From an uncultured Clostridium sp. (GTDB lineage Bacteria > Bacillota_I > Bacilli_A > RF39 > UBA660): a stretch of DNA of 40,631 bases. This document shows positions 2,551 through 28,482 of this stretch, piece after piece; position 1 is the first letter of the stretch, and each line of letters opens with the position of its first letter. The stretch covers positions 76,879 through 117,509 of the forward strand of contig CAMIWC010000003.1 in NCBI GenBank assembly GCA_946402315.1, written 5' to 3'. The notes beneath the pieces are model-generated. The model made no database searches, had not been told where the DNA came from, and saw nothing but the letters and a program-made list of their open reading frames with translations. The translations under genes and the position numbers were made by a program.

Positions 2551-2577
2551 GTAGCGTGAAAAAAGGGAGGTTAGGTT

Positions 2578-3423: not shown

Positions 3424-3449
3424 AGTCTTAATGACTTTATTTTTTTTAT
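3422..3449 (+). terminator. Intrinsic terminator of the 2578 gene
   Basis: AAAGTC (3422-3427), loop TTAAT, GACTTT (3433-3438), then a run of T. The stop codon of the upstream gene overlaps the left arm. Confidence 0.8.
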
Positions 3450-3450
3450 T

Positions 3451-3459
3451 TGTTATAAT
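3451..3459 (+). promoter_or_regulatory. Extended -10 promoter of nusB-xseA-xseB
   Basis: TG-T-TATAAT lies directly after the terminator T-tract. The predicted start is near 3466, only about 10 bases before the chosen nusB ATG, with GGTGAT as the Shine-Dalgarno. Confidence 0.6.
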
Positions 3460-3475
3460 TATATTGGTGATGTTT

Positions 3476-3886: not shown

Positions 3887-5195
3887 TTACATAACCGTAA
3901 CACAGTTAAGTAGATATCTTAAATATAAAATGGATAATGATCCTAATTTAATGAAAGTATGCTTAAAAGGAGAAATATCTAATTTTAAAGCACATTCTCG
4001 TGGTCATTTATATTTTACTATTAAAGATGAAAATTCTAGAATTAATGCGGTTATGTTTCAAGGAAATGCTTCTAAACTTAAATTTGAACCAGTAGATGGA
4101 TCTAAAGTACTAGTTATTGGTAAAGTAAGTGTTTATGAAGCAACTGGAGGATATCAAATCTACGTATCAGAAATGATAGAAGATGGTATAGGTAACTTAT
4201 ACATAGAATTTGAAAAGTTAAAGAAGAAGTTAGAGGCTGAAGGACTATTTAGTTTAGAACACAAGAAAAAAATACCTAAGATGCCTAAAAGAATTGGTAT
4301 TATTACCGCACCAACAGGAGCCGCTATAAAAGATATCTTATCTACAATTAAAAGAAGATGGCCTATAGCTGAAACACTTTTATTCCCGTCTTTAGTTCAA
4401 GGTAAAGAAGCAGCTGAAGATATTGTACGTAATTTAAAAAGAACTGAAGACTTTGACTTAGATGTAATCATTCTTGGTCGTGGTGGTGGATCTATCGAAG
4501 ATATGTGGTGCTTTAATGAAGAAATAGTTGCTCGAGCAATATATGCCTGCAAAACACCTATAATCTCTGCTGTAGGACACGAAATTGATTATACTATCTC
4601 AGACTTTGTTAGTGACCTTCGTGCCCCTACACCTACTGGAGCAGCTGAAATGGCCGTTCCTAATATAAGTGATTTCTATAATTACTTAAATCAAATATAT
4701 ATAAGACTTAATAAGAGTACTAATACTATTATTAAGACTAAGAAAGATTACTTAAATTCTTTAAAAGATAGTTATGTTTTAAAGAATCCTATGAATATAT
4801 ATGAGATTAAAGAACAAAACTTTGATAACTTATTAGATCGTTTGAGAATTACTATTTTAAATATCTTAAATACTAATAAAGATAGATTAAATAATCTTAA
4901 AACTAGTTATATTTTAAATAATCCAAAACTTATCTATAAAGATAAAGAAATAGAATATTTACATTTAAAAGATAAATTAGGATTTAGTATGAATAAAGTA
5001 CTCAATAATAATATTAATAGATATACAATTCTAATTAATAAATTAGATGTTATAAATCCACTCGCAACTCTTAAAAGAGGATATAGTGTAACTAGACATA
5101 ATAATTCTGTTATAAGTGATAAAAAGAACCTTAAGAAAGGTGACTTACTTGAAATAGAATTTAGAGATGGAAAAATTAATACTGAAGTTATATAG
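3876..5195 (+). CDS. xseA: Exodeoxyribonuclease VII large subunit
   Basis: Exonuclease VII degrades single-stranded DNA from both ends; the large subunit holds the catalytic site. Its 439 residues fit the family. The N-terminal OB-fold DNA-binding region shows TVTQLSRYLKYKM and CLKGEISNFKAHSRGHLYFT. The catalytic core has RIGIITAPTGAAIKDI, ILGRGGGSIEDMWCFN and SAVGHEIDYTISDFVSDLRA. A long Asn/Lys-rich helical region follows, then the terminal NPLATLKRGYSV motif. The start overlaps nusB, and xseB follows after 8 bases with GGAGG. Confidence 0.97.
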   Translation: MEDNYITVTQLSRYLKYKMDNDPNLMKVCLKGEISNFKAHSRGHLYFTIKDENSRINAVMFQGNASKLKFEPVDGSKVLVIGKVSVYEATGGYQIYVSEMIEDGIGNLYIEFEKLKKKLEAEGLFSLEHKKKIPKMPKRIGIITAPTGAAIKDILSTIKRRWPIAETLLFPSLVQGKEAAEDIVRNLKRTEDFDLDVIILGRGGGSIEDMWCFNEEIVARAIYACKTPIISAVGHEIDYTISDFVSDLRAPTPTGAAEMAVPNISDFYNYLNQIYIRLNKSTNTIIKTKKDYLNSLKDSYVLKNPMNIYEIKEQNFDNLLDRLRITILNILNTNKDRLNNLKTSYILNNPKLIYKDKEIEYLHLKDKLGFSMNKVLNNNINRYTILINKLDVINPLATLKRGYSVTRHNNSVISDKKNLKKGDLLEIEFRDGKINTEVI

Positions 5196-7062: not shown

Positions 7063-8052
7063 ATGCTTACCGATAGACAAAAAGAAGTCTTAAAAATAAT
7101 AGTACAAGAATATATTGATTCAGCAAGACCAATCAGTTCTAATGAAATATGCGATAGACTTAAATGTTCTAGTGCAACAGTAAGAAGTGAAATGGCTAGT
7201 CTTGAAGAGTTAGGCCTTCTTGAAAAGACTCATACATCATCTGGAAGAGTTCCTAGTGAAGCCGGATATAGATATTATGTAGATAATCTAATGGAACTTA
7301 AAAAGATGAGTGCTGAAGATATGTTAAAGTTACAAATTATCTTTAAGAATAATCAATTACAATTAAATGATTGTGTTAATGAAAGTTTAAGACTTATTTC
7401 AGAGATGACTAATTATACATCAATGAAATTAGGAATGGCTTCTCACGATAACACACTAAAGGAAATAAGCGTAGTCCCTATAAATAATGATAACCTAGCA
7501 GTTATTGTAGTAACAAATACAGGATATGTAGAACATAAAAATGTTTATATTCCGAATGTTGACTTGGATGACGTTAAGAAAACAGTTAATCTAATCAATA
7601 ATATGATCGTAGGTACACCAATAGATGAAGTAGCATCTAAACTAGAATACGAAATTAAACCAATAATTGGTAATTATGTAGAAGAACATGAAAAATTATA
7701 TAATGCCTTCTATAACGTATTTAATAACTTTACAAGTACCAATGTAGATATTGTAGGAAGAAACAATTTATTAAAACACAAGGAATTCTCTAATATTGAT
7801 AAGATTAGTAATATCTTAGAAAAATTAGATGATAATGAGATTCTAGAAAATGTAAATGTTTCTGGTGACAATAAAGATATAAATATATATATTGGTAAAG
7901 AAAACAATATCGATGAAGATATGACAGTAATTGAAACTAATTATAAGACACCAACTGAAGAAGGAAAACTTGTAGTTATTGGACCTAAGAGAATGGAATA
8001 TGATCGTGTAGTAAGTTTACTAGAATATATTAAAGAACAAATAGAAAGATAG
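7063..8052 (+). CDS. hrcA: Heat-inducible transcription repressor HrcA
   Basis: HrcA represses class I heat-shock genes by binding CIRCE. I chose ATG 7063 (MLTDRQKEVLKIIVQEYIDS, 329 residues), seven bases after AGGAGG (7050-7055); the in-frame GTG at 7045 lies inside the operator and Shine-Dalgarno and is rejected. The N-terminal winged helix carries ARPISSNEICDRL, SSATVRSEMASLEELGLL and HTSSGRVPSEAGYRYYVD, all characteristic. The C-terminal part matches the family dimerisation and inserted domain. It is first in hrcA-grpE-dnaK-pepF-dnaJ and autoregulated through the two upstream boxes. Confidence 0.97.
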   Translation: MLTDRQKEVLKIIVQEYIDSARPISSNEICDRLKCSSATVRSEMASLEELGLLEKTHTSSGRVPSEAGYRYYVDNLMELKKMSAEDMLKLQIIFKNNQLQLNDCVNESLRLISEMTNYTSMKLGMASHDNTLKEISVVPINNDNLAVIVVTNTGYVEHKNVYIPNVDLDDVKKTVNLINNMIVGTPIDEVASKLEYEIKPIIGNYVEEHEKLYNAFYNVFNNFTSTNVDIVGRNNLLKHKEFSNIDKISNILEKLDDNEILENVNVSGDNKDINIYIGKENNIDEDMTVIETNYKTPTEEGKLVVIGPKRMEYDRVVSLLEYIKEQIER

Positions 8053-8062
8053 GAGAAATGAA

Positions 8063-8602
8063 GTGGAAGAGAAAGAGGTAAAAGTAGAAGAAGTACAACA
8101 AGAACCTAAAACAGAAGAAGAAATAATTGAAGAGTCTAGTGAAAGTGAAGAAGTACTTATTCTAAAAAATACAATTGAAAACTTAGAAAATAAAGTAAAA
8201 GAATCTAAAGCTGAGTTAATTAACTATCGTAAGAGAAAAGATGAAGAAGTAATTAATAGATTAAAGTTTGCTAATCAAGATTTAATACTAGAAATTATTC
8301 CAGTACTTGATAACTTTGAAAGAGCAATTAAATTATCAAATTCAAAAGATGAGTCTTTGTCTAAATTCTTAGATGGATTTAAATTAACTTATAATAGTTT
8401 GCTAGATACATTAAAAAGATATGGAGTAGAAGAAATTCCTGCAGAAGGACAAGTATTTGATCCTAATATGCATCAAGCTATGTTAGTAGAACAAAACAAT
8501 GAAAAAGAAAACAATATAGTACTAGAAGTACTAATTAAAGGTTATACATTAAATGGTAGGGTAATTCGTCCTGCCTCTGTAAAAGTAAATAAATTAGATT
8601 AA
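8063..8602 (+). CDS. grpE: Nucleotide exchange factor GrpE
   Basis: GrpE releases ADP from DnaK. The start is GTG at 8063, seven bases after AGGAG; an ATG at 8058 is in another frame. The 179 residues begin with a long acidic low-complexity stretch and a coiled coil (LKNTIENLENKVKESKAELINYRKRKDEE). The conserved head follows: NQDLILEIIPVLDNFERA, LLDTLKRYGVEEIPAEGQVFDPNMHQAM and GYTLNGRVIRPASVKV. It sits between hrcA and dnaK, 10 and 14 bases from its neighbours. Confidence 0.97.
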   Translation: MEEKEVKVEEVQQEPKTEEEIIEESSESEEVLILKNTIENLENKVKESKAELINYRKRKDEEVINRLKFANQDLILEIIPVLDNFERAIKLSNSKDESLSKFLDGFKLTYNSLLDTLKRYGVEEIPAEGQVFDPNMHQAMLVEQNNEKENNIVLEVLIKGYTLNGRVIRPASVKVNKLD

Positions 8603-8613
8603 AGGAGAAATGA

Positions 8614-10431
<1,818 letters not shown>

Positions 10432-10443
10432 TAAATAAATTAT

Positions 10444-10478
10444 AAGATAAGTTCTAGTTTAGGCTAGAACTTTATCTT
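10444..10478 (+). terminator. Long hairpin between dnaK and pepF (weak terminator or processing site)
   Basis: AAGATAAGTTCTAG (10444-10457) pairs with CTAGAACTTTATCTT (10464-10478) with a single bulged A. No real T-tract follows, so partial termination or 3'-end protection of hrcA-grpE-dnaK mRNA is more likely than full termination. Confidence 0.6.
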
Positions 10479-10496
10479 GTATAAGAAAGGGCTACT

Positions 10497-12278
10497 ATGA
10501 ATAAATATAAATCAAGAAAAGATGTACCTGAAAAATATAAATGGGATTTAACTGATTTCTTTAAAGATGATAAAGAATTTAATATAGAATTTGATTCAGT
10601 AAAAAAAGAAGTATCTAATCTAAAAAAATATGTAGATTGTACTAAAGATGCTAATAAATTATATGAATTCCTAGATAAAGATATTCATACTGTATCTCGA
10701 CTAGAGAACTTATATATTTATGCTTATCTAATAAATGATCAAGAATTAGGAGTTTCTTCTTCTATTGAAAGAAAAGCTAGTACTGAACAACTTATGGCTA
10801 CATACAGTACAAATATTAGTTTCTTTGAACCAGAATTATTGGAATTAAATAGTACTGATTATAATAAGTTATTTAAAGATAATAAAAAACTAAATAATTA
10901 TAAATTAGTACTAAATAAAATATATCGTAATAAAGAGCATATATTATCTGAAAGAGAAGAAATAATTATAAATGAATTAACAAGTGCAATGGATCATTTT
11001 GAAGATATGTCTAGTACTATGTTAAATACTTTAAATAATTATGGCACAGTTAATGGAGAAACACTTACTACTACTAATTATCGTTTATATATGAAAAATG
11101 AAGATAGGAATTTAAGAAAAAGTGTTAGAGAGCAATTTAGTAAAGTACTTGATCAATATAGTCCAGCATCTGCCCAATTCTTAGATTCATTTGTAAAAGG
11201 TGAAGTAGCAGTTTCTAAAATACATAAACATAAATCTTGTTTTGATAGAAAACTATTTAATCAAAATATGCCTAAAGAAGCATATAATACTTTAAGAGAT
11301 ACAGTAGAAGAAAATGCTAAAGTATATCAAAAATACTTAGATTTATTAAAAGAAACTAAAGGATATGATAAGTTATACCCATATGATTTATCTTTAGAAT
11401 TAACTAATAATAATAAAGAGTACTCTATAGAAGAAGCACAAGAACTATGTTTAAATGCTTTAAAACCTTTAGGAGAAGATTACTTATCTCATTTTAGAAA
11501 AGTATTTGATAATAGATATATAGATTATGCTGAATATAAAGGAAAATGTTCAGGTGGATATTCATTTGCACCATTAGATAAAGATTCTAGAATATTAATG
11601 AGTTATAATTATGATTTAGACTCAGTATCTACTATAATTCACGAAGGTGGACATAATGTTCATCATCAATTTATATCAGAAAATAATCCATTACAATATA
11701 GAGAAGTATCATCTTTAGTATCAGAAGTAGCTTCTCTTACTAATGAATGTTTATTAAGTTCCTATTTAGCTAAGAATGGTAGAACTAAAGAAGAAAAACT
11801 TTCTGGTATAAATAATATAATAAGTGTAATTAATTCTAATTTATTTGGAGCAGTAAGAGAAGGACATATAGAAGAAGATTTCTATAATTTAGTAGAAAAA
11901 GATGGTACAATTACTAAAGATTATATGAATAAAATATCTTTAGAATCTATTAAGAAATATTATGGAAATAAAGTAGAATTAGATAATTATTCACCTCTTT
12001 CTTGGATAAGAAGAAGTCATTATTATATGTTTTTCTATTTATATTCTTATGCTTTTTGTATCGCAGTAGCGTCTTCAGTTGCTAAAGAAATATTAGATGG
12101 AAATAAAGATATGTTAAATAAATATATTAAATTCTTAAGTACTGGTGGAGATGTATGGCCAATTGATGCATTTAAAGTACTAGGAATAGATTTATGTAAG
12201 AAAGATGTATATAAAAACGCTATTAAATACTATGAAGATATGATAGATTTATATAGAAAAATAGAAAAGGAGAATTAA
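10497..12278 (+). CDS. pepF: M3-family oligoendopeptidase F
   Basis: A cytoplasmic zinc metallopeptidase that cuts oligopeptides. Its 593 residues match the PepF family. The zinc motif HEGGH is at residues 382-386 ([14 protein letters not shown]), and the third ligand is probably E410 in [10 protein letters not shown], 24 residues after the second His. The N-terminus ([21 protein letters not shown]) is typical. It is unusual for pepF to lie between dnaK and dnaJ: dnaJ starts one base after its stop, so dnaJ translation is probably coupled to it. A hairpin separates it from dnaK. Confidence 0.95.
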
Positions 12279-14139: not shown

Positions 14140-15027
14140 ATGAAAAAAGATATTGAAGATTTTATTAATTACATCATATTTGAAAAAAGATTAAGTAAGA
14201 ATACATCTGCATCTTATTCTAAGGATCTAGAGAAATATGAAGAATATCTAGAAAAGAAAAAAATATATAATACTTCTGATATTAGTAAGAGTGATATAGA
14301 AAGTTATATTGAATACCTAAATAAAAATGAATCAGTTAGTTCTATAGCTAGAAAACTTACTACTATTAAGTCTTTTCATAATTATTTATATCAAACTAAA
14401 AAGATATCAGTAGATGTTGCTGAAACTATAGAAAGGCCTAAATTAAGAAAAAAATTACCTAGTGTATTATCAGTAGAAGAAGTAGATAGATTACTAGATA
14501 TCGAGTGCCTTACTCCGATTGACTACCGTAATAAGTCTATGCTAGAATTAATGTATGCAACTGGACTAAGAGTTACCGAATTATTAGACTTAAAAATAGG
14601 GGATATTGATACAGAAAACTGTATTGTAAGAGTCTTTGGTAAAGGAAGTAAAGAACGTATCGTACCAGTTGGTGAATATACATTAGATTCATTAAGTAAT
14701 TACTTAGAAGTAAGAGGTCAATTGCTTAAAAATAGAAGTTGTGAATATTTATATTTAAATAGTCAAGGTGGAAGACTTAGTCGTTTTAGTTTCTTTAAGA
14801 TTATTAAGAAACTTCTAATGGAAAAAGGAATACATAAGGATGTATCTCCTCATTCATTAAGACATAGTTTTGCGACTCATATGCTTGATTATGGAGCAGA
14901 TCTTCGTAGTATACAAGAACTTCTTGGTCACTCAGATATCGCAACTACTAAAATATATACACATATATCAAACAATAAGATAAAAGAAGAATATAATGAA
15001 TATCATCCTAGAAGTACAAAGGAGTGA
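14140..15027 (+). CDS. xerD: Site-specific tyrosine recombinase XerD-type
   Basis: Tyrosine recombinase that resolves chromosome dimers at dif. It has 295 residues, the standard Xer size. The N-terminal core-binding domain (INYIIFEKRLSKNTSASYSKDL) is followed by a full catalytic set: R144 (ATGLRVTELL), K168 (GKGSKERIVP), H238 and R241 (SPHSLRHSFATHML), H264 (LLGHSDIATT) and nucleophile Y273 (KIYTHIS). The spacing H238-H264-Y273 equals that of E. coli XerD as I recall it. XerC versus XerD cannot be decided without a tree. A candidate dif site lies at 21623-21650. It is co-transcribed with deoB, an arrangement resembling B. subtilis ripX-drm. It ends in UGA. Confidence 0.93.
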   Translation: MKKDIEDFINYIIFEKRLSKNTSASYSKDLEKYEEYLEKKKIYNTSDISKSDIESYIEYLNKNESVSSIARKLTTIKSFHNYLYQTKKISVDVAETIERPKLRKKLPSVLSVEEVDRLLDIECLTPIDYRNKSMLELMYATGLRVTELLDLKIGDIDTENCIVRVFGKGSKERIVPVGEYTLDSLSNYLEVRGQLLKNRSCEYLYLNSQGGRLSRFSFFKIIKKLLMEKGIHKDVSPHSLRHSFATHMLDYGADLRSIQELLGHSDIATTKIYTHISNNKIKEEYNEYHPRSTKE

Positions 15028-16213: not shown

Positions 16214-16969
16214 ATGAGTAGAGAAATTCCTAAAGAAAAAATGGATCAAATGATTGAGTTTTTAAATGCTCACAAAGTTCAATATGGTAGAACTTCAGGA
16301 CAACAACAATTAATTGAAGAAGAAGAGATATTTACTCCATTACATGAATTTATAATTTATGAATTACCAATGGCCTTTCAATATAGAAATGTATATCAAT
16401 CATATTTTAACGAAATATTATCTTGGTTTGATGTCTTTGACAAAGAAGAAGATCCATATACGATATTCGCTGATACTATTGAAAGAAAATTTGGTAGTTT
16501 AAAAGGTCGAAATATTATTGAAATAGGTTGTGGACCAGTTCCTGCTTTATCTCGTAGATTAGCTGAAAGAATGCGTGATAATGATGGTAATATAGTTGGT
16601 TCAATTACTGCATATGATCCAGATATCGTAATAGATCCATCTGAACTTCCTGGAGTAACATTAAAAAGAGCTCTATTTGATGAAGATACTAAAATACCTG
16701 AAGATGTTATACTTGTATCTATGACACCTATTACTCAAGTAATACATATTATAGAGTTTAAAGTTAATAGTGAAAAGATTGCTAGTATCGTTCAATTAGG
16801 TATAGATGAAGATGAAGAAATAAGGTTTTCTTTAAAAAGTGATCATCCTTATGGAATAATGACACTTAGCCATGAACCAAGTAAGTATTCTAAAAGAGAT
16901 GAAAGAGTTATTACTTATTTAGGAGAAGATAACGGTAATAATACTGATCAAAATAATAGAAGCAAATAA
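16214..16969 (+). CDS. Methyltransferase-fold protein A, paralogue of the 20516 gene
   Basis: The 251-residue soluble protein has a Rossmann-type SAM-binding signature: IIEIGCGPVPAL at 101-112 as the glycine loop and AYDPD near 133-137 ending strand 2. An N-terminal helical region of about 95 residues precedes it, and the tail is Asn-rich. The glycine-loop region matches the protein at 20516 (IIEVGSGFLPTLSERL versus IIEIGCGPVPALSRRL; VYDP versus AYDP), so the two look paralogous. It follows deoB by 9 bases with GGAGG but ends in a terminator just before the SPFH gene. Substrate unknown; whether it still methylates anything is uncertain. Confidence 0.75.
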   Translation: MSREIPKEKMDQMIEFLNAHKVQYGRTSGQQQLIEEEEIFTPLHEFIIYELPMAFQYRNVYQSYFNEILSWFDVFDKEEDPYTIFADTIERKFGSLKGRNIIEIGCGPVPALSRRLAERMRDNDGNIVGSITAYDPDIVIDPSELPGVTLKRALFDEDTKIPEDVILVSMTPITQVIHIIEFKVNSEKIASIVQLGIDEDEEIRFSLKSDHPYGIMTLSHEPSKYSKRDERVITYLGEDNGNNTDQNNRSK

Positions 16970-17100: not shown

Positions 17101-18318
17101 ATGGGATTTATTAAAGCGTTTACAGGTGCCCTAGGTGGTACATTTGCTGACCAATGGCTAGATTACTATATGCCAATGGATGGTGTTCCTGCAACTGCAG
17201 CAGTATTTAGAGCTGTACCAAAAGGAACAAATAATGGAAGAGGAGAAAACACTAAAGGTAACGATAATATCATTACTAATAAAAGTAAGATCTTAGTACC
17301 TGAAGGAACTGCTCTAATTACATTACAAGATGGACAAATCACAGGAATGATTGCTGAACCAGGAGGATATGAATTTAATTCTGATGATCCTAACTCTCAA
17401 TCTCTATTTGCTGGAGATGGTATTGTTTCATCATTAATTAAATCTTCATGGGATAAAGTAAAATTTGGTGGACAACCAGGAGCTCAACAATTAGCATTCT
17501 ATGTTAACTTAAAGGAAATTCCTAACAATAAATTTGGAACTCAAGCTGAAATTTATTGGGATGATGCATTCTTTGGAACTCAAGTAGGTGCTGTTACTCG
17601 TGGTACTTATACATTAAAGATTGTAGACCCACTATTATTTGTTAAGAACTTTGTTCCTCAAAAATATTTAACTGCTACTGCAGAACCATTTGATTTTGCA
17701 GATATGGATAATGATGCAGCTAGTCAATTATTTAATGAAGTAGTTGGAAGTCTTTCTGCAGCATTCTCTAATTATACAAACGATCCTTCTAAAGGAAACA
17801 GAATGAGTAAGATTCAAGGAGATCAAATTGGATTTGCTCAAAGTTTATCTCAAGCTGTAGATGAAGGATATCAATGGAAAACTGATCGTGGATTAGAAAT
17901 CGTTAAAACAGCAATTCTTGCAATTGAATACGATGAAGATACTAAGGCTCTAATGAGCGACGTTAAGAAAGCTGACGCTTTATCAGGAGCTCGTGGAAAC
18001 TCATTTATGCAACAATCTGTTGCTCGTGGAGTTCAAGCTGCTGGTGAAAACGGTGGTGGAGCTGGTATGGCATTCATGGGAATGGGAATGGGTGCTGCTG
18101 GTGGAATGATGGGTGCTATGCAACAACCTAACACTGGATCAACTTACCAACCTAACTTCGGAGGACAACAAGCTGCTGCTCCAGTTGAAGCTGCACCTCA
18201 AGCTGCTCCTCAAGAAGATCCAACAACTAAATTATTAGAAATGAAAAAGTTACTAGATGCTGGTGCTATTTCTGAAGAAGAATATAACCAAGTCAAAGCT
18301 AAACTTTTAGGACTATAA
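17101..18318 (+). CDS. SPFH/band-7 domain protein with C-terminal SHOCT domain (YdjI-like)
   Basis: The 405-residue protein matches the YdjI-like SPFH family, sometimes labelled virion core protein. The N-terminal region (AFTGALGGTFADQWLDYYMP) precedes the SPFH core (residues about 30-290: SKILVPEGTALITLQDGQIT, EPGGYEF, IYWDDAFFGTQVGAVTRGTYTLKI). A Gly/Met-rich stretch follows (GMAFMGMGMGAAGGMM), then a Gln/Pro/Ala linker. The last 35 residues are a SHOCT-type helix-turn (KLLEMKKLLDAGAISEEEYNQVKAKLL). Codons look optimised as in dnaK, suggesting abundance. In B. subtilis, YdjI works with PspA and YdjG/YdjH at the membrane. One base separates its stop from the zinc-ribbon gene. Confidence 0.88.
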   Translation: MGFIKAFTGALGGTFADQWLDYYMPMDGVPATAAVFRAVPKGTNNGRGENTKGNDNIITNKSKILVPEGTALITLQDGQITGMIAEPGGYEFNSDDPNSQSLFAGDGIVSSLIKSSWDKVKFGGQPGAQQLAFYVNLKEIPNNKFGTQAEIYWDDAFFGTQVGAVTRGTYTLKIVDPLLFVKNFVPQKYLTATAEPFDFADMDNDAASQLFNEVVGSLSAAFSNYTNDPSKGNRMSKIQGDQIGFAQSLSQAVDEGYQWKTDRGLEIVKTAILAIEYDEDTKALMSDVKKADALSGARGNSFMQQSVARGVQAAGENGGGAGMAFMGMGMGAAGGMMGAMQQPNTGSTYQPNFGGQQAAAPVEAAPQAAPQEDPTTKLLEMKKLLDAGAISEEEYNQVKAKLLGL

Positions 18319-18319
18319 T

Positions 18320-19873
18320 ATGGATGAGGCTACAAAGAATGAAATGCCTACAAACGAAGTAAAAGAAGAAGAAAAAGTAGTAGAAAGTGCTACTAAAGTA
18401 GTACAAACAGATACTGGTGCTAAAGATGGACAAAATAAATGTCCTAAATGTGGATCAACTGATATATCTACAAGTATTAAAGCTGGTCGCTTAAGATGTA
18501 ATTTCTGTCGTTTTGAATTTGAACCTGAAAAGGTAGAAGGATTAGAAACTGATATTTCTAAACTAGAAGGACAAGTTATGGCATCTGGAGCATCAGATAT
18601 TATTGCAGATACTAAAGATGTATTAACATTTAAATGTAGTAGTTGTGGAGCAGAAGTAGTAATTGATACTAAAGATGCTTTACAAGCAAGATGTCACTGG
18701 TGTCGTAATACTTTGTCTGTTAATCAACAAATTCCAAATGGAGCTGTTCCAGATGTAGTTTTACCTTTTGCTATTACTAAAGATCAAGCAAGAGCTAAAA
18801 TAGAAGAATTTGTAGGTAAGAGAAAATTTTTTGCTCATCCAATATTTACAAAAGAATTCAATGCTAATAACGTTATGGGTGTATATTTCCCATATATGTT
18901 AGTTGATGTTAATGCCCATGCTGATTTCAAAGGTGAAGGTGAACATCAAACAGGAATGTATTATGTCAGTGTTGGAGAAAATAGAAGAGAACCTCGATAT
19001 AATGCTGATAGATATCATGTAGAACGTGATTTTGATATTACTATTAATGGTTTATCTATTGAATCTAATTCATCTAGATTAGATAATACAGATAAAACTA
19101 AAACTAATAATATTATTAATTCTATTATGCCTTTTGATACTGATAAATGTGTTAAGTATAATGCAAACTATTTAAATGGTTACACTTCTGAAAGAAGAGA
19201 TACTAACGTTGAAGGTCTTAAGACAATGGTAGATAAACAATCTAAAGATATTGCTAGGTTTGCTGCTAATGATTATTTAAAGAATTATGATAGAGGAGTT
19301 AAGTGGGATACCCAAAACTTTAATATTAAAGGACAACAATGGGTAACTGCATATCTTCCTGTATGGTTATATAGTTATTATCAAAAAGATAAAAATCTAA
19401 TGCATTATGTTGCAGTTAATGCAAGAACACAAGAAACTATGGGTAGTGTACCTATTAACTATACTAAGCTAACTATTGTATCACTTATAGTAGAAGTAAT
19501 TTGTTTCTTTGCATTCTTAACTAATATCCTAGATGATTATAGTTTCGTATTCTTATTAGGTGGAATTATATTCTTCTTTGTTATGAAAGGTAGATATAGA
19601 AATTCATCTGCTAGACATGATTATGAAAATACTACTAAAAAGAATGTTACTAATATGAAGACTGTGGATAATTTTTTAAAGAGTTATAAAGGTCTTAAAA
19701 ATTCTAGAATAGAAGGACAAAATAACTATAGTCTTGAAGGAAATAACAATAAAGATGTAGTTAGTGCTTTAGGTAAAGCTTTAATTGGTTCACCTACTGC
19801 AGATAATGATCTTGTTGGATTTGTAAAAGACTTAGATAAAAATAAAGATAAAGTTAAAGAAGATAACAAATAA
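18320..19873 (+). CDS. Double zinc-ribbon membrane protein (TFIIB-type ribbon, YdjG-like)
   Basis: The 517-residue protein has two zinc ribbons: Cys 41/44/60/63 (CPKCG...CNFC) and Cys 106/109/125/128 (CSSCG...CHWC). A large middle domain follows (residues about 135-375, with PFAITKDQARAKIEEFVGKR, a transfer-type sequence common in this family), then two membrane segments at about 384-402 and 409-428. The C-terminal tail is polar and cytoplasmic-looking. Such ribbon-membrane proteins typically sit beside SPFH/YdjI proteins in Gram-positive bacteria. It lies one base after the SPFH stop, without a strong RBS of its own, implying coupling. The stop is inside a 12-base-pair hairpin. Confidence 0.85.
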   Translation: MDEATKNEMPTNEVKEEEKVVESATKVVQTDTGAKDGQNKCPKCGSTDISTSIKAGRLRCNFCRFEFEPEKVEGLETDISKLEGQVMASGASDIIADTKDVLTFKCSSCGAEVVIDTKDALQARCHWCRNTLSVNQQIPNGAVPDVVLPFAITKDQARAKIEEFVGKRKFFAHPIFTKEFNANNVMGVYFPYMLVDVNAHADFKGEGEHQTGMYYVSVGENRREPRYNADRYHVERDFDITINGLSIESNSSRLDNTDKTKTNNIINSIMPFDTDKCVKYNANYLNGYTSERRDTNVEGLKTMVDKQSKDIARFAANDYLKNYDRGVKWDTQNFNIKGQQWVTAYLPVWLYSYYQKDKNLMHYVAVNARTQETMGSVPINYTKLTIVSLIVEVICFFAFLTNILDDYSFVFLLGGIIFFFVMKGRYRNSSARHDYENTTKKNVTNMKTVDNFLKSYKGLKNSRIEGQNNYSLEGNNNKDVVSALGKALIGSPTADNDLVGFVKDLDKNKDKVKEDNK

Positions 19874-19885
19874 GTTATCTTCTTT
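19856..19885 (+). terminator. 12-bp perfect hairpin after the zinc-ribbon gene
   Basis: AAAGAAGATAAC (19856-19867), loop AAATAA carrying the stop codon, GTTATCTTCTTT (19874-19885). The T-tract is poor (TTTGATTAAT), so it may attenuate rather than terminate expression of the gene at 19903. Confidence 0.7.
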
Positions 19886-19902
19886 GATTAATAGAGGAGA
19901 AT

Positions 19903-20463
19903 ATGAATAATAAAATATTCAAATTATTATGTAGTATTCCAGTAATACTTGTAGCAATCTATTTTATACCGTTTTTAGGCGTATGTTTAATGATATTCAG
20001 ATATTTTATCTATCATAATGAAAAAGGCTTTAAAATGCCTATTACGTTAGTTATAACAGGTATTATTATATTAATCCCTAAAGTATTAGAATCAATTATA
20101 AGAAATTTTAAATTAAAAGTAGAAATACCATATTTAAATGATATTTTAAGTTATGAATTATATCCTAACTTAATTAAATATAGTAAGTTATTAATTACTT
20201 TAGGTATTATATTCTTAATATTATCTTATATAATTAAAAATTTATTAAATAGGGTAGGAAATAAAATAGAAAGTAAAGTAAATGACTTTGTGGAAGAAGA
20301 ACATAATAGAAGCCAAGAAAACGATTTAAAAATCAAAGAAAAACAAGAAAAAGCTAAGAATACTCACGCAGTACATTGTCCTTACTGTGGAGCAGTTACT
20401 ATATTAACTGAACAAACTGGAATATGTAAGTTTTGTCGTAAACCAATAGAGTACAAAAAATAA
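19903..20463 (+). CDS. Small membrane protein with C-terminal zinc ribbon
   Basis: The 186-residue protein has hydrophobic segments at about 9-33, 46-64 and 95-112, a charged helical region (residues 115-152), and a C-terminal ribbon C159/C162/C175/C178 (HCPYCGAVTILTEQTGICKFC). The layout is the reverse of the 18320 protein, where ribbons come first. It starts at ATG after GAGGAG, 29 bases past the upstream stop. Together the proteins at 17101, 18320 and 19903 look like one envelope-associated set, but the function of this member is not known to me. Confidence 0.8.
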   Translation: MNNKIFKLLCSIPVILVAIYFIPFLGVCLMIFRYFIYHNEKGFKMPITLVITGIIILIPKVLESIIRNFKLKVEIPYLNDILSYELYPNLIKYSKLLITLGIIFLILSYIIKNLLNRVGNKIESKVNDFVEEEHNRSQENDLKIKEKQEKAKNTHAVHCPYCGAVTILTEQTGICKFCRKPIEYKK

Positions 20464-20515: not shown

Positions 20516-21334
20516 ATGAAATTAAGAGATCTTACAGACGAGGAAATAAAACTTCTCCAAGATTTTGCTAGAAACAACCGTATGTATGTTCAAAGACAAG
20601 CAAATCCATCTATTTTAAATTATTATTTTAAAGATCGTCCAGGACAAGATTCAAGACAAGAACAAATGTACGATTGGTTAAGAATAAGACCTAATGAAGA
20701 TAGTATATATCATTTGACTGCAAAAGATATTGTTGAAGAGTATGGAAAAGATTTCTTGAAAGCTGTAAGAATTATTGAAGTAGGAAGTGGATTCTTACCA
20801 ACTTTATCTGAAAGATTACTAGAATTAGTTCCTGAAATAAGTAGAATAGATGTATATGATCCTGTTTTATATACAACTATATTTGATAGTAATTTAGAAA
20901 GAAGAAACAGATTAGAAAAGATGGTTCTAATAAATGAACCATTTACTCCAGAAGTACCAATAGATAGCAAAAAACCATCTCTAATTATTTCAAGGCATCC
21001 ATGTCCAGGAACACCAGCTATTATTGATGTAGCAGGGGAGAAGAAGTCAGTAGAGCTATACTGTGTATTGTGTCGATGCAATACCAAACAAATGAGAGAA
21101 GGTACCCTATCATACTATACTGATAGAAGAATAATTAATGGTCCTAATTATTCTCCTAAGATACATATCATCGGACAAGGAAATTTAGAAGAAGAGGGTT
21201 TCGATTTTAAATGGTATGATCAAACATATTATTCTTTAAAAAAGTATAGACCAGAAGTAATATCAAAAAAACTAAAACAATTTGGGCAAAGAGAAGATAC
21301 TGTAATACTCACTAATCCTACTAGACTAAAATAA
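20516..21334 (+). CDS. Methyltransferase-fold protein B, paralogue of the 16214 gene
   Basis: The 272-residue soluble protein has a helical N-terminal 80 residues and a Rossmann glycine loop IIEVGSGFLPTL at 86-97, with VYDP at 113-116. The later part is unusual for a methyltransferase: a Cys cluster (SRHPCPGTP then YCVLCRC) and a basic C-terminus (KKYRPEVISKKLKQFGQRED). The glycine-loop block aligns with protein A, so both probably descend from one gene, now flanking the SPFH block. It has its own TATAAT (20487-20492) and terminator and is the last + strand gene before the orientation switch. Substrate unknown. Confidence 0.75.
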   Translation: MKLRDLTDEEIKLLQDFARNNRMYVQRQANPSILNYYFKDRPGQDSRQEQMYDWLRIRPNEDSIYHLTAKDIVEEYGKDFLKAVRIIEVGSGFLPTLSERLLELVPEISRIDVYDPVLYTTIFDSNLERRNRLEKMVLINEPFTPEVPIDSKKPSLIISRHPCPGTPAIIDVAGEKKSVELYCVLCRCNTKQMREGTLSYYTDRRIINGPNYSPKIHIIGQGNLEEEGFDFKWYDQTYYSLKKYRPEVISKKLKQFGQREDTVILTNPTRLK

Positions 21335-21337
21335 ATC

Positions 21338-21368
21338 ACCCTACTTTAAAACTAGAGTAGGGTTTTTA
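21338..21368 (+). terminator. Intrinsic terminator of methyltransferase-like gene B
   Basis: ACCCTACT (21338-21345), 10-base loop, AGTAGGGT (21356-21363), TTTTT. Confidence 0.9.
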
Positions 21369-21373
21369 TATAT

Positions 21374-21483
21374 ATACCTTATATTATATATAATATGGTT
21401 ATTATATTATAACCTTATTAAAATATATAATAAGGTTAATACACGCGTTATAACCTTATTTAAATAATATAATAAGGTTATAA
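21374..21483. repeat. Cluster of AACCTTATT inverted repeats
   Basis: Two perfect hairpins: TAACCTTATTA (21410-21420) with TAATAAGGTTA (21428-21438), and TTATAACCTTATT (21448-21460) with AATAAGGTTATAA (21471-21483). Between them lies the only GC-rich hexamer here, ACGCGT. Just upstream, 21374-21402 is a degenerate copy (ACCTTATA...ATATGGTTAT). The order AACCTTATT/AATAAGGTT repeated twice is far more regular than AT-rich background. No ORF crosses it. Confidence 0.85.
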
Positions 21484-21622
21484 GCATACATGATTGTCTA
21501 TGAGCTCGAACTCAAGCTCATTCATACATTACAAGCACTACATCGTAGTGTTTTCTTATGTGTTTTGGTTCTCTCTATCAAGAAGACTAATCTAATTACC
21601 AAGAACAAAATTTATAGCTTAA
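21484..21622. other. Gene-free structured stretch between repeats and dif
   Basis: No credible ORF. It contains an inverted repeat ATGAGCT (21500-21506) / AGCTCAT (21515-21521) and a hairpin CACTAC-ATC-GTAGTG (21536-21550) followed by TTTT, which would terminate a + strand transcript. A short RNA ending near 21555 is possible, but I see no convincing promoter. The rest, to 21622, is featureless. Confidence 0.4.
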
Positions 21623-21650
21623 AAGCAACATAATATCAATTATAGGAAGT
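21623..21650 (-). other. dif: Candidate dif site (Xer recombination, chromosome terminus)
   Basis: Read on the minus strand, the 28 bases start with ACTTCCTATAA, an 11-base XerC-type arm, then a six-base centre TTGATA, then TTATGTTGCTT as the XerD-type arm. Against the Firmicutes dif sequence as I remember it (B. subtilis ACTTCCTAGAA / TATATA / TTATGTAAACT), 21 of 28 positions agree; against the form with T at position 9, 22 of 28. Mismatches are confined to the centre and the outer end of the XerD arm. It lies in the convergent intergenic region where gene orientation flips, exactly where dif is expected, and a Xer recombinase is encoded at 14140. Confidence 0.75.
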
Positions 21651-21661
21651 TAATCTTCGAA

Positions 21662-21687
21662 TAAAAAAGATAGTTTAATAGACTATC
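21662..21687 (-). terminator. Intrinsic terminator of the PP2C-like gene
   Basis: On the minus strand GATAGT, seven-base loop, ACTATC, then six T. The stop codon (21685-21683) is in the first arm. Confidence 0.85.
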
Positions 21688-22375
21688 CTTTTTTTATTCT
21701 TAGTACGTTAGCACCAATATCAGTATCTTGATCTACATCAGTTAGTAAGGTTCTGACTTTATTTACAGCACTCATGTTAATCATTGATACTGCTTCAATA
21801 TCACGTATTCTTATATCATCAGGAACTAGATATATTTCTTCAATTCCTGAGTAGTAAAAATATGATCCATGTGATTCTTCTAAAGATGCACCAGAGTTAC
21901 ATCCAGCACCCATAAAGGTTACATCATATACTCCAATTCCTTCCATTGGTTTAAGATATATTCTTAAGTCACCAACGTTATATAATACTACATCTCCTTC
22001 TCCATTTGAGATAGCAAATCCAAATGATGTTTTAGCTCCATATAAAGATGCTTGTCTCATATTGCTAACAATAGATGCCATTCTTTCGCTATACTTAGAT
22101 GAATTAATATCAGTTTCTCTTTCGTATCTAAACCATTCAGTAAATCTAGAAATAAGCTTTTGACTGTTTTCTTTATTATTACTTTGAGCCATAGCCATTA
22201 ATTTTAAATCTTGGTCATACTTATTCTCTACTCTACCAGATACTAAGAAGCTTCCGTAGATTGTATTTGTTTCAGAGTCACCAGTAATAACTTTACCTGC
22301 ATATTCTGATTTAACTAATTTTACTTCTTGAGGTATTAAACTATTAAACCAATCTCTTAAAGAAAAATTCTTCAT
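21683..22375 (-). CDS. Divergent PP2C-like (PPM) phosphatase-fold protein
   Basis: The 230-residue soluble protein has three stretches recalling PPM phosphatases: SGRVENKYDQD (46-56) like the N-terminal G-x-V-R-x-N-x-D motif, SFGFAISNGEGDVVLYNVGDLRIYL (about 117-141) like the central NxGDSRxY motif, and DTDIGANVLRIKK at the end like the final DNxTxxxV strand. The usual metal-binding DGxGG motif is not evident, so activity is doubtful. I offer the fold assignment as inference. Promoter: extended -10 TG-A-TATAAT (minus strand, 22414-22409) and AAAGGAG before the ATG. It is the first gene on the right of the dif region. Confidence 0.55.
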   Translation of the reverse strand: MKNFSLRDWFNSLIPQEVKLVKSEYAGKVITGDSETNTIYGSFLVSGRVENKYDQDLKLMAMAQSNNKENSQKLISRFTEWFRYERETDINSSKYSERMASIVSNMRQASLYGAKTSFGFAISNGEGDVVLYNVGDLRIYLKPMEGIGVYDVTFMGAGCNSGASLEESHGSYFYYSGIEEIYLVPDDIRIRDIEAVSMINMSAVNKVRTLLTDVDQDTDIGANVLRIKKG

Positions 22376-22476: not shown

Positions 22477-23244
22477 TTATACTTTTCTAGATTGAATTTC
22501 AGCTATTTTTTCTAATACTTCTTTAGCATTGTCTTCATTGATTTCATTATATCCTAATTCTCTTAATGCTTGTACTTTTGCTGTATTAAGTTCTTGTGTA
22601 CGACTTAACTTTTCTTCATTCTTATGTTCAATATCTTGTACAAATCTTTGATGTGATTCTGCTAGCTTAGATTTAGAAGCACCACCATTATTATATAAAG
22701 TTAATCCAGAGAATAAGATACTTTCGAAGATAAATTGTTGTTCTTTATTAAAAGCAAATTCCATTGGATCAGTAAATCCCATAGATTTAGACATATATGC
22801 AAGTATATATTTAAGTTCTGGGTTAGTCTCCATTGATCTTAAATAATGATATAAATATAAATATGCATTATATGTTTCTTTAGTTTGATCATCTTGTAAT
22901 TTTTCTTTCAATAAATTGATTATGTCACTAAGAAGTTCTTGTTCCTTTTTATTAAATCCTTTAAGATCAGCTATTATCTCACGATCTCCTGAATCTTTAA
23001 CTCCATCATTAAGTCTTCCTTCAACAGCCATGATATAACTACTATCTATAGTTAGATTTTCAAGGTCTTTTTCTTCTTTAATATCTAATAGGCTTAATAA
23101 TTTTGTAACTTTTTCTTTAGGCCAATCACTAAGTGAAGATAATGCTAAATAGTTATATAACATTTGACGTGAAACTCCTAAATATTTAGCAAGTCTTACC
23201 TTTGATATACCTAACTCATTTAATATGCTACCTAATTTCTCCAT
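22477..23244 (-). CDS. HTH (XRE-type) DNA-binding regulator with helical C-terminal domain
   Basis: The 255-residue protein opens with a Cro/CI-type helix-turn-helix (LNELGISKVRLAKYLGVSRQ, residues about 8-27, then MLYNYLALSS). The rest is almost entirely helical, with a charged middle (DLKGFNKKEQELLSDIINLL) and a long C-terminal helix (LNTAKVQALRELGYNEINED...). It may sense a ligand or oligomerise there; no sensor domain recognised. The promoter overlaps a small palindrome (23283-23295), suggesting autoregulation. Neighbours do not define its targets; the adjacent PP2C-like gene has a separate promoter. Confidence 0.75.
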   Translation of the reverse strand: MEKLGSILNELGISKVRLAKYLGVSRQMLYNYLALSSLSDWPKEKVTKLLSLLDIKEEKDLENLTIDSSYIMAVEGRLNDGVKDSGDREIIADLKGFNKKEQELLSDIINLLKEKLQDDQTKETYNAYLYLYHYLRSMETNPELKYILAYMSKSMGFTDPMEFAFNKEQQFIFESILFSGLTLYNNGGASKSKLAESHQRFVQDIEHKNEEKLSRTQELNTAKVQALRELGYNEINEDNAKEVLEKIAEIQSRKV

Positions 23245-23310: not shown

Positions 23311-24417
23311 TTATAGTAGATACCAAAGTTTTTCTTGATTTTTTCTAACTTCTTTGATAATACCCCCGCCAAGGCATTGTTCTCCCAAATAGAAAACACA
23401 TGCTTGTCCTGGGGTTACTGACTTAATATTATCGTATTTAACCAAGATATTACCATCATCTAAGTATTCTAATTCAACTGGATAATCATCAGCTCTATAT
23501 CTAAATTTAGCCGTACATTTAGTAGGTCTCTTATCACAGTTAAAGTTAATGTCTTCAACAAGACAACTATCAGATAATAAATATTCATTATCTTCACCAA
23601 GGGCAACATATAAAATGTTTTTATCTAGATTTTTACCTACTACAAACATTCTATTTTCATATCCACCAATATCTAATCCTCTTCTTTGACCAATAGTGTA
23701 GTACATAAGTCCTATATGCTCCCCTACTCTTTCACCAGTTTCAATATTTATAATGTCACCTTTTTGATTAGGTAAGTAATTCTTTAAGAATTCTTTGAAA
23801 TTTCTTTCTCCAATGAAACATATACCGGTAGAATCTTTCTTTTTAGCAGTTACTAAATTATATTGTTCAGCAATTCTTCTTACTTCAGGTTTTTCTATAT
23901 CACCTAAAGGAAAGATTACATTTTTTAATTGTTCTCTACTTAATTGAGATAAGAAATAAGTTTGATCTTTATTTTTATCTTTACTACGGTATAAATCTCC
24001 ATCTACCATTTTAGCATAATGACCTGTTGCGATATAATCTGCTCCAAGACGTTCTGCTTCTTTAATAAAGCAATCAAATTTAATATATTTATTACACATT
24101 ATATCAGGATTAGGAGTTCTACCTTTATTTAATTCATCTAAGAAATAAGTAAATACATAATCCCAATATTCTTTAACAAAATCTATTCTATGAAGCGGAA
24201 TACCTATAGTTTCACATACTTTAATAGCATCATTATAATCTTCTTCTTGAGGACATATATTATTGTTTAATGTAGGATTACCTAGAATATCATTATTTAC
24301 ACTAGCATCCCAATTACGCATAAACAGTCCTTCTACATCATATCCTTGTTCTTTTAATAGGATTGCTGCTACAGAAGAATCTACTCCTCCACTCATACCA
24401 ATAATAACTTTTTTCAT
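23311..24417 (-). CDS. mnmA: tRNA-specific 2-thiouridylase MnmA
   Basis: MnmA adds sulfur to U34 of tRNA-Lys, -Glu and -Gln. The 368-residue protein has the ATP PP-loop SGGVDSS at residues 9-15, catalytic Cys108 (NPDIMCNKYIKF) and the second Cys200 (STGICFIGERNF), so the thiolation disulfide pair is intact. The TGHYAK and FLSQL motifs are also present. Promoter: minus-strand extended -10 TG-T-TATAAT (24441-24436) with a leader of about 12 bases and GGAAGTGAT before the ATG. No clear terminator lies between it and the HTH gene promoter. Confidence 0.97.
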   Translation of the reverse strand: MKKVIIGMSGGVDSSVAAILLKEQGYDVEGLFMRNWDASVNNDILGNPTLNNNICPQEEDYNDAIKVCETIGIPLHRIDFVKEYWDYVFTYFLDELNKGRTPNPDIMCNKYIKFDCFIKEAERLGADYIATGHYAKMVDGDLYRSKDKNKDQTYFLSQLSREQLKNVIFPLGDIEKPEVRRIAEQYNLVTAKKKDSTGICFIGERNFKEFLKNYLPNQKGDIINIETGERVGEHIGLMYYTIGQRRGLDIGGYENRMFVVGKNLDKNILYVALGEDNEYLLSDSCLVEDINFNCDKRPTKCTAKFRYRADDYPVELEYLDDGNILVKYDNIKSVTPGQACVFYLGEQCLGGGIIKEVRKNQEKLWYLL

Positions 24418-24493: not shown

Positions 24494-26176
24494 TTACCAT
24501 CCTTTATCTTTATTAGTTATTTTAGTAGGTTCATAAACCATACCAGTAAACCATACTTCACCAGTATCTTTATCACGAATAATATACATGAATGGTTTAT
24601 TGAAAATTAAATCAATCTTTTTAATAGGAACATCATAGATATAATCAAAGTCACATGATTCATTACCCATACCACCAATACTAGTTGCAGCAGCAGCTTT
24701 AATACCTTCATTAGAGAATTCAATAGTCGCTTTATGATCAGCTATTGCTATATGAGCATTTCCATTAGCAAGATTATTTAAATCAGCTTTTGAAGAATCA
24801 AATACATTAATTACACCAATTTTATTTAATGCAGGTTTTAAATCAAATGAATAATCATATTTAAACATTGGAACAAATCCAGTTAAATCTGTTACATATC
24901 CATCTTCAAAACTATCAAGATTAATTCCTTTTAACCCATCTAAAATAGTATTCATATCTTTAGCAGTTAAAGTATTAACATATTCATCTAAAGATATTTG
25001 AGTTGGCATAATACCAATATATTGAAGTGTTACTCCATTATAATTTTTTAAATCTTTTGCAAATACTTGTACATCCGAATCATAATAGAAAGTAAAATCA
25101 GTTGAACTACTTACATGTTTATAATTACTTTTGATATCTTTCATATATTGAGCCATATAAGTTTCAAGATCAGGATCATCATCATGTTCACAAGGATTTT
25201 CTTCAAGGAACTTTTTATATGCAGCAGAAACAGTGTTTCTTATATTATCTTCTCCTAATTCAGTTATGATATCATATTTATTTGCAACTGCACCAAATTC
25301 AACGCTTTTAGCATTAATACTATTATTAAATTTAAGTTCAGAATATCCAGTCATATCAAGAGTTCCAATACCTTTTCCAAATTTTTCATGTGGAAAAGAT
25401 ACTGCATAATAACCTAAATAATCAGAGTCATATATCTCATCTTCATTTTCTTCTTCCATAACACTTTTGCTTTGAATAGGATTTACCCATTCCATATCAA
25501 TTGCTAGAGCATTAACTAATACAAAATCTAAATCTTTAATTGTAGCATCATCTACTAATCCATTGATTAATTTATTAGTTTTATTATTTACCCAAGAATT
25601 AACTGTATTAGCATTACTAAATGAATCATATATTACATCAGCATTATACTTTGTTTTTAAGTTATCTACATATGTAGTTTTAACATTATCTTTGAAACTA
25701 TTCTTTACAAATAAAGCATTAGCAAATGATAAATTTTTACTATTAGTATAAGTTTTAGCAGAATATTCACCAATTATATCATCTATTTGTGTTTTAGTTT
25801 CTCCTGATGCTCCTTCACTTAGCATTTCAAGAGCATACTTTATTGATAATGGACTATATATAATATTCTTCTTATTATTATTGTCTTTTAAAAATAACAA
25901 ATCAAATTCTGATAAATTGTATCCTTTTATCTTATAAGCTGATTCCACTTTTTTTGTTTCTGTTTTATTTTTCTTTTCAGTATCATTCTTTTCTTTATTA
26001 TTATTTAATAAAAAGAATGCTCCTACACCACAAGCTACTAATAAAAGCAATACTATTAATAGTAATCCTTTTTTAGATTTTTTCTTAGGTGTTTCTTCAG
26101 CTACTGAAGTTGGTTCTTCAGTATTGATTTCAGTATTAACTACTTCTTCATTAACATTTTCATTTAAATTATCCAT
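24494..26176 (-). CDS. Membrane-anchored serpin (serine protease inhibitor)
   Basis: I chose ATG 26176 (MDNLNENV, 560 residues); the in-frame GTG at 26188 lies in the AGGTG Shine-Dalgarno. An acidic cytoplasmic segment and KKKSKK precede one membrane helix at 37-57, a type II anchor that places the serpin domain outside. Serpin signatures are NIIYSPLSIKYALEMLSEGA, the hinge NEGIKAAAAT (489-498) and the C-terminal FNKPFMYIIRDKDTGEVWFTG. By analogy with alpha-1-antitrypsin, G491 would be P15, A494-A497 P12-P9 and the scissile bond near N505-E506. Ala at P12-P9 suggests an inhibitory serpin; Ile at P14 is bulkier than usual. A likely role is protection against host or community proteases. Confidence 0.92.
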   Translation of the reverse strand: MDNLNENVNEEVVNTEINTEEPTSVAEETPKKKSKKGLLLIVLLLLVACGVGAFFLLNNNKEKNDTEKKNKTETKKVESAYKIKGYNLSEFDLLFLKDNNNKKNIIYSPLSIKYALEMLSEGASGETKTQIDDIIGEYSAKTYTNSKNLSFANALFVKNSFKDNVKTTYVDNLKTKYNADVIYDSFSNANTVNSWVNNKTNKLINGLVDDATIKDLDFVLVNALAIDMEWVNPIQSKSVMEEENEDEIYDSDYLGYYAVSFPHEKFGKGIGTLDMTGYSELKFNNSINAKSVEFGAVANKYDIITELGEDNIRNTVSAAYKKFLEENPCEHDDDPDLETYMAQYMKDIKSNYKHVSSSTDFTFYYDSDVQVFAKDLKNYNGVTLQYIGIMPTQISLDEYVNTLTAKDMNTILDGLKGINLDSFEDGYVTDLTGFVPMFKYDYSFDLKPALNKIGVINVFDSSKADLNNLANGNAHIAIADHKATIEFSNEGIKAAAATSIGGMGNESCDFDYIYDVPIKKIDLIFNKPFMYIIRDKDTGEVWFTGMVYEPTKITNKDKGW

Positions 26177-26192
26177 TTTTATTCTCACCTCT

Positions 26193-27051: not shown

Positions 27052-28482
27052 ATGAAAAAGAAATATGATGTAATTATAATAGGTGCTGGTCCAGCAGGAC
27101 TATTTGCTGCTTATGAATTAATTACCAAAAATAAAGATCTAAATGTACTTTTACTAGATCAAGGAAGATTTGCTGAAACAAGAGTATGTCCAATGAATAA
27201 ATATGGAACTCAATGTAAGAATTGTAAGCCATGCCAAATACTTTCAGGATATGGAGGAGCTGGTACATTCTCTGATGGTAAATTAAACTTCATACCTAAA
27301 CTAGGTAAAAGTGATTTATTTAAATATATGAATGAAGAAGATGCATATAAGATTATAGATGATTCTGAAGTAATATTTACTAAGTTTGGAATGGATGCTG
27401 AAATATATCCTAAGAATTTAGATGTTGCTGATGATATAAAGAAGAAAGTTGCCCTTTCAGGAGCAAGACTACTACTTATTAAACAAAAACACTTAGGAAG
27501 TGATCATCTACCTACTTATATTATGAACTTTACTAACTTCTTAAAAGAAAATGGTGTTGAATTACTAGAACAAGCCAATTGTACTGATCTACATAGTGAA
27601 AAAGAAAATAAACATATTGTAACTATTAAATATAAAGGTGAAGAACATAAATTAGAAGCTAGATATGTTGTAGTAGCTCCTGGTAGAACCGGAGCTAAAT
27701 GGATTCAAGAAATAGCTGATAAGTACGATATACCTTATATATCTAGAAGTATTGAAATAGGTGTACGCGTTGAAGTAAGAAAAGAAATATTACAAGATTT
27801 ATGTGATGTTATATATGATCCTACTATATTCATTAAAACAAAGACTTATGGAGATGAAATAAGAACATTCTGTACTAATCCAGGAGGATTTGTTACTAAA
27901 GAAAACTATTATGGATATATCTGTGTTAATGGACATAGCCTAAAAGATATTAAATCTAATAATTCTAACTTTGCATTTATATCTAAAGTAAGTTTAACTG
28001 AACCAGTAACTAATACTAGATTATATGGTGAATCAATTGCTAGAATTGCTAATGTATTAGGAGATGGAAAACCAATTATCCAATCACTTAAAGACTTAAA
28101 AGATGGAAGACGTAGTGAATGGCATAGAATTAATAAAGGATTTATTTCCCCTACTCTAAAAGATTGTGTAGCTGGAGATTTAGCTTTAGTATTACCTCAT
28201 AGAATTATTACTAATATTATTGAAGGATTAGATAAATTAAATGAAATCATTCCTGGTGTAAATAACGGAGAAACAATTCTATATGGACCAGAAATAAAGT
28301 TCTTCTCTAATGAAATAGAAACTAATAATCAATTTAAATTAGAGAAATATGATGTTTACTTTGTAGGAGATGGAGCTGGTAAAGCAGGAAATATTGTTAC
28401 TGCTGCAGCTACTGGTTTAATATCTGCAAGAGATATCTTAAAACAAGAAAAAGAAAATAACAAAAATAAAAAGAAGGATTAA
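27052..28482 (+). CDS. COG2509-type FAD-dependent dehydrogenase
   Basis: The 476-residue flavoprotein starts with a dinucleotide-binding fold (DVIIIGAGPAGLFAAYEL, GAGPAG at 11-16). A cysteine-rich stretch CPMNKYGTQCKNCKPC follows, then GYGGAGTFSDGKLNF, both typical of uncharacterised COG2509 FAD-dependent dehydrogenases. Near the C-terminus GDGAGKAGNIVTAAATG closes the FAD site. The four cysteines could bind a metal or act in redox; substrate unknown. GGTGG precedes the ATG. It is the only sizeable + strand gene right of the terminus, so it would be lagging-strand encoded. Confidence 0.88.
   Translation: MKKKYDVIIIGAGPAGLFAAYELITKNKDLNVLLLDQGRFAETRVCPMNKYGTQCKNCKPCQILSGYGGAGTFSDGKLNFIPKLGKSDLFKYMNEEDAYKIIDDSEVIFTKFGMDAEIYPKNLDVADDIKKKVALSGARLLLIKQKHLGSDHLPTYIMNFTNFLKENGVELLEQANCTDLHSEKENKHIVTIKYKGEEHKLEARYVVVAPGRTGAKWIQEIADKYDIPYISRSIEIGVRVEVRKEILQDLCDVIYDPTIFIKTKTYGDEIRTFCTNPGGFVTKENYYGYICVNGHSLKDIKSNNSNFAFISKVSLTEPVTNTRLYGESIARIANVLGDGKPIIQSLKDLKDGRRSEWHRINKGFISPTLKDCVAGDLALVLPHRIITNIIEGLDKLNEIIPGVNNGETILYGPEIKFFSNEIETNNQFKLEKYDVYFVGDGAGKAGNIVTAAATGLISARDILKQEKENNKNKKKD

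Follow-up and report, generated by a model that had tools for sequence, protein, structure and literature searches.

A conserved dif site at the replication terminus of an uncultured family of Bacilli, accompanied by a palindrome array and a helix-turn-helix gene

Does the short intergenic gap on which the genes of this locus converge hold the chromosomal dif site of its lineage and, if so, what accompanies that site? The question arises from the window analysed here, a stretch of 40,631 nucleotides from an uncultured member of the Bacilli (GTDB lineage RF39; UBA660), in which an initial annotation had picked out a dif-like 28-mer. We find that 21623-21650 is very probably the chromosomal dif site, in itself a known and ordinary kind of site. 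What is new is the presence at dif of a palindrome array and of a helix-turn-helix (HTH) gene that is almost always beside it. Both are undescribed companions of dif that the initial annotation had missed, and together they hint at an extra control of chromosome separation.

On the minus strand the 28-mer reads exactly ACTTCCTATAATTGATATTATGTTGCTT (G000:C3:98501-98528 in genome coordinates), with an 11-bp XerC arm ACTTCCTATAA, a 6-bp centre TTGATA and an 11-bp XerD arm whose inner part is TTATGT, just as the initial annotation had described it. Its likeness to the dif of Bacillus subtilis, given there as 21-22 of 28 positions, comes to 21 of 28, and this is the level of chance: a second site in this AT-rich 961-kb genome has the same score, and Markov-shuffled genomes attain 21-22. 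We therefore dropped this likeness as the only proof, and we identify the 28-mer as dif because of its conservation as a single copy and its position. Scored against a class consensus with 26 fixed positions it reaches 23, and the search for a better dif elsewhere in the assembly, suggested by the initial annotation, returned none (at most 20/26, as in Markov genomes). The genome (961,591 bases in 15 contigs, 74% complete), of which almost all was read, contains the 28-mer once, without a second copy within 3 mismatches. A near match was found in 37 of 59 genomes, this one counted, with exactly one in every congener (8/8); a reversed-pattern control gave 0 matches in the 59 genomes and two in 193.

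The position is that of a replication terminus, as had been proposed from the flip in gene orientation at the 28-mer. The credible genes left of 21334 are all on the plus strand and those right of 21683 all on the minus strand, with the sole exception of 27052-28482. The turn in cumulative GC skew that had been predicted for this point is also there: along the 117-kb contig the skew is positive for 98 kb and then negative for 19 kb, and its cumulative maximum falls at window position 21296, which is 327 bp from dif and 39 bp beyond the left end of the intergenic gap (Table 1). The clearest skew minimum of the assembly lies on contig C1 at 105,791, by a dnaA-like gene (DnaA-type motif at 106,459), and dif is thus located at the skew switch opposite the origin. 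The relative G006 is alike, with a skew maximum 362 bp from its own dif. What counts against a clean picture is an extra +/-/+ skew block of about 65 kb on contig C4 of the window's own genome, with a switch near 15.9 kb and no dif, which is probably an inversion or a joining error; an element would be a further possible cause. An Rfam search of the window returned no RNA family.

The gene at 14140, which the initial annotation took for a recombinase acting at this site, can be named: its product passes the cut-off of the NCBIfam XerD model (Table 1), scores under the cut-off of the XerC model, and would be the XerD that cuts dif. In 13 of the 25 loci read in relatives the xerD gene is close to dif, at about 2-6 kb and on the opposite side from the HTH gene, a count in which several of the remaining loci end early. 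In the 74% complete assembly itself xerD is the only match, and a search for xerC found none; all 8 congeners encode a second, XerC-like protein (38-40% identity) that is likely XerC, and most relatives encode two or more Xer-like proteins. In the 961 kb of this incomplete assembly and in the part of G006 that was read, a search for FtsK motifs found none, which is no proof of absence.

The XerD arm varies in a way that follows the lineage. In the genus it is TTATGTTGCTT or TTATGTTGCCT, against TTATGTTAACT in most of the family, with an outer part that reads TTGCYT in the former and TTAACT in the latter. The arm also ends in TTGCCT in three near neighbours (G016, G115 and G183), and the outer-arm change therefore belongs to a lineage, as the initial annotation had supposed. 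In three relatives (G016, G003 and G030) small elements sit inside dif, bounded by dif on one side and a hybrid dif on the other; the two boundaries have the XerC arm and centre in common and differ in the outer XerD arm, which is what Xer-mediated integration would leave. Two genera (G016 and G003) carry very small HTH_36 elements, and the third relative an inovirus-like one (Table 1). The presence of elements between dif and hybrid dif in three relatives means that such sites recombine in nature.

Table 1. Coordinates of the features discussed (window positions unless a contig is named).
Feature	Position	Strand	Remarks
dif site	21623..21650	minus	single copy, one in each of 8 congeners, at skew maximum
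dif XerC arm	21640-21650	minus
dif central 6 bp	21634-21639	minus
dif XerD arm	21623-21633	minus
Intergenic gap between converging genes	21335..21682		348 bp; contains dif and palindrome array
Terminator-like hairpin after last rightward gene	21338..21363	+	consensus scan only
Palindrome unit 1, nearest dif	21452..21479		AACCTTAT-N-ATAAGGTT; CCTTAT/ATAAGG core 145 bp from dif edge
Palindrome unit 2	21411..21437		about 41 bp beyond unit 1
Palindrome unit 3	21377..21398		slightly decayed, 11/12 arm bases
xerD	14140..15027	+	TIGR02225, 344.6 bits (cut-off 329.6)
Fast-evolving gene between dif and HTH gene	21683..22375	-	matches only in G001 and G006
Terminus-linked HTH protein	22477..23244	-	255 aa, no named family
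mnmA-like gene (presumed)	23311..24417	-	usually adjoins HTH gene; synteny control
1.7-kb element with replication-initiation-like protein (HTH_36)	L147 (G016:C11) 2300-4009
Relative of the G016 element, over two contigs	L146 and L112 (G003:C50, C70)
4.7-kb inovirus-like element (Zot-like ATPase, Rep_OBD replication protein)	L151 (G030:C38) 7089-11813

The first companion of dif is an array of palindromes of the pattern CCTTAT-11/13-ATAAGG with an A/T spacer, which in the window spans 21377-21479 on the XerD side and consists of two perfect units and a decayed one, with a CGCG-centred dyad between units 1 and 2. It is present in all 9 examined genomes of the genus, where exact searches match only beside dif and found no units elsewhere. 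Strong matches to a family-wide pattern search and a covariance model came from about a dozen genera; each genome had them at a single locus, which was close to dif wherever dif could be placed on the contig. Matches with G or C in the spacer are scattered and lie away from dif. Measured uniformly between the near edge of the nearest unit and the edge of dif, the distance is 145-185 bp in all 18 pairs; 12 of them (the window and 11 other genomes) have the array on the XerD side and the other 6 on the XerC side. In G127, G118 and G076 dif is called only weakly (20-21/26), and the distances there therefore rest on the best site within 3 kb. In a tree of the HTH protein the array-bearing genomes fall into at least two separate groups, each with the array on one side of dif. 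For a distance that is fixed whichever side of dif the array is on, the best explanation would be that the array is physically coupled to the Xer synapse, in the manner of cer/psi accessory sequences (PMC11724359).

In most genera of the family an array cannot be recognised: a relaxed search near dif in 20 loci without the strict array returned 1 weak match, and a generic palindrome scan near dif returned mostly terminator-like hairpins. Where the array exists, it is more likely a site in DNA, because its arms, which flank A/T-only spacers of 11-13 bp, are conserved as sequence and because pairing fails in 9 of 24 cells at the variable position; on the same grounds we rejected an RNA hairpin. 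Three matches in viral contigs were likewise set aside as chance, having G or C in their spacers and falling, in two cases, within phage coding sequence.

Among 193 genomes of the family, 175 carry the second companion, the HTH gene; a single-sequence search located it in 0 of 23 sampled genomes from other families of the class, and no viral relatives of its product were found. Its product has an N-terminal helix-turn-helix that falls under every family cut-off, with profiles from Pfam, NCBIfam, PHROGs, PADLOC and the PDB giving sub-threshold HTH matches or noise only, and a single-sequence AlphaFold2 model proved unusable (mean pLDDT 44.7). The gene shares a contig with dif in at least 107 genomes. 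Among the 107 listed cases the gap has a median of 406 bp, never exceeds 11.3 kb, and is below 2 kb in 94 and below 5 kb in 103; transcription runs towards dif in all 107, and the gene stands on the XerC side in 87. In the 20 other listed relatives dif is inverted relative to the gene, which there stands on the XerD side. Many genera have the protein, with its helix invariant, and are devoid of any array, so the array need not be the target of the HTH protein.

Other genes of the neighbourhood deserve a mention. An SPFH/Band-7 protein that ends in SHOCT and, after it, proteins with zinc-ribbon-like motifs (17101-20463) are found near the terminus both here and in G006; two related-looking proteins (16214-16969 and 20516-21334) lie near dif, with matching genes in the same place in relatives; and 24494-26188 encodes what by eye looks like a serpin-like (bacterial) protein.

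The observed basis of the dif reading is thus the site, its uniqueness and conservation, the skew switch, xerD and the natural insertions in relatives. Resolution by dif/XerCD is well supported as the mechanism. Sister chromosomes that recombination has fused would each bring one dif; the ACTTCCTATAA arm would be bound by XerC and the TTATGTTGCTT arm by XerD (14140-15027), and strand exchange at TTGATA, in the centre, would part the fused chromosomes. The gap of converging genes around dif is the replication terminus. On weaker grounds, the array is a candidate binding site for an accessory protein that would regulate or shape the Xer synapse, and the HTH protein may work at the terminus, perhaps as one such accessory factor. 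In the most far-reaching version of this proposal, a plasmid-like accessory module would replace FtsK, or act alongside it, in controlling dimer resolution at dif throughout a large family of small-genome Bacilli; the module would consist of the palindrome array, at its set distance to one or the other side of dif, and of a previously undescribed, terminus-encoded HTH family. This version strikes us as rather unlikely.

Several explanations extend this account or compete with it. The array could be a plasmid-type accessory sequence, on which a bound protein would wrap or bridge the sister sites so that XerCD recombine only sites on the same molecule, or only at the right time; ArgR/ArcA and PepA act in this way at cer and psi. 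Such a role, which would extend the dif reading, is suggested by the constant distance in all 18 pairs, which holds on both sides and across two or more separate clades of the HTH tree, by the restriction of strong matches to one locus per genome, and by conserved arms around an A/T-only spacer, as for the binding site of a dimer. Plasmid accessory sequences are also about 200 bp long and lie beside the core (PMC11724359). However, the known ones adjoin the XerC arm, whereas the array is found on either side, and most genera of the family are without a recognisable one; we regard the idea as a real possibility, though we would lean against it.

The HTH gene, for its part, might stay near dif through inherited gene order only (xerD-deoB-...-dif-HTH-mnmA), with no role at the terminus. 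Because its neighbour, which from general sequence knowledge we take to be mnmA-like, lies close by in 21 of 25 loci as well, the closeness of the HTH gene to dif may in part be inherited order, and its pointing at dif follows from the general co-orientation of genes. Yet the HTH gene stays by dif in the 4 loci where no mnmA-like gene is nearby, it is usually the nearest tested gene on its own side of dif, and the gap remains under 2 kb in 94 of the 107 listed genomes, across many genera. Gene order as the whole explanation is therefore credible enough to be kept in mind, and somewhat doubtful.

We consider it unlikely that the array is a remnant of dif-integrating elements that brought their own Xer site and accessory sequence. 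Elements do integrate at dif in this family and the distribution of the array is patchy, but the elements integrated in G016 and G030 show no array, the three viral-contig matches are due to chance, and the array is kept in 9 of 9 genus genomes examined. Less likely still is a fork trap or pause, with the HTH protein acting as terminator at the array, its ter site, in the manner of rtp-Ter and tus-Ter. A DNA-binding gene does lie at the terminus in nearly all genomes, and the RTP and Tus genes are likewise autoregulated from a neighbouring ter site (PMC10331603). Against this, each genome has a single cluster of sites instead of a set on both replichores, most HTH-bearing genera have no array, and in the genus of the window the array lies outside the HTH promoter. 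Finally, that the 28-mer resembles dif by chance and the signal for the terminus lies elsewhere, an idea to which the chance-level likeness to B. subtilis dif lends something genome-wide, is almost certainly wrong in view of its single-copy conservation, the skew and the insertions, and could be upheld only if the sites of the relatives were all coincidence.

The dif reading supplies a large uncultured family with a firm terminus and a dif consensus. The array, with its fixed distance, has an architecture known from plasmid Xer sites; if the same holds on a chromosome, accessory DNA, and not FtsK alone, could gate Xer recombination. And the HTH gene, beside dif in many genera, is a candidate terminus protein where none is known.

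Compared with known systems, the locus is closest in its core to the dif/XerCD of B. subtilis and other Bacilli, with which it has in common a 28-bp site of 11+6+11, the XerC arm ACTTCCTA, the inner XerD TTATGT, a position at the skew switch and, in relatives, two Xer recombinases; it differs in the outer XerD arm (TTGCYT), the array at 145-185 bp, the adjacent HTH gene and the closeness of xerD. A recombinase gene linked to its own site is also a trait of XerS/difSL and XerH/difH (PMC2731167). Here, in contrast, the dif arms are canonical and relatives have two Xer proteins; a single-recombinase system of either type does not fit the two or more Xer-like proteins of most relatives. With rtp-Ter of B. 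subtilis and tus-Ter of Escherichia coli the locus shares a DNA-binding-protein gene at the terminus and palindromic sites nearby; however, no relation of the HTH protein to RTP or Tus was detected, it is from dif that the array keeps its fixed distance, and one array cluster per genome was found instead of several polar ter sites facing both forks. The known Xer accessory sequences adjoin the XerC arm (PMC11724359), which is not so in the window and 11 other genomes, where the array is on the XerD side. The locus further differs from the plasmid sites cer (ColE1) and psi (pSC101) in being chromosomal and in that its array may be on either side, and it resembles them in that a core Xer site is accompanied, at a set distance, by DNA that looks like protein sites.
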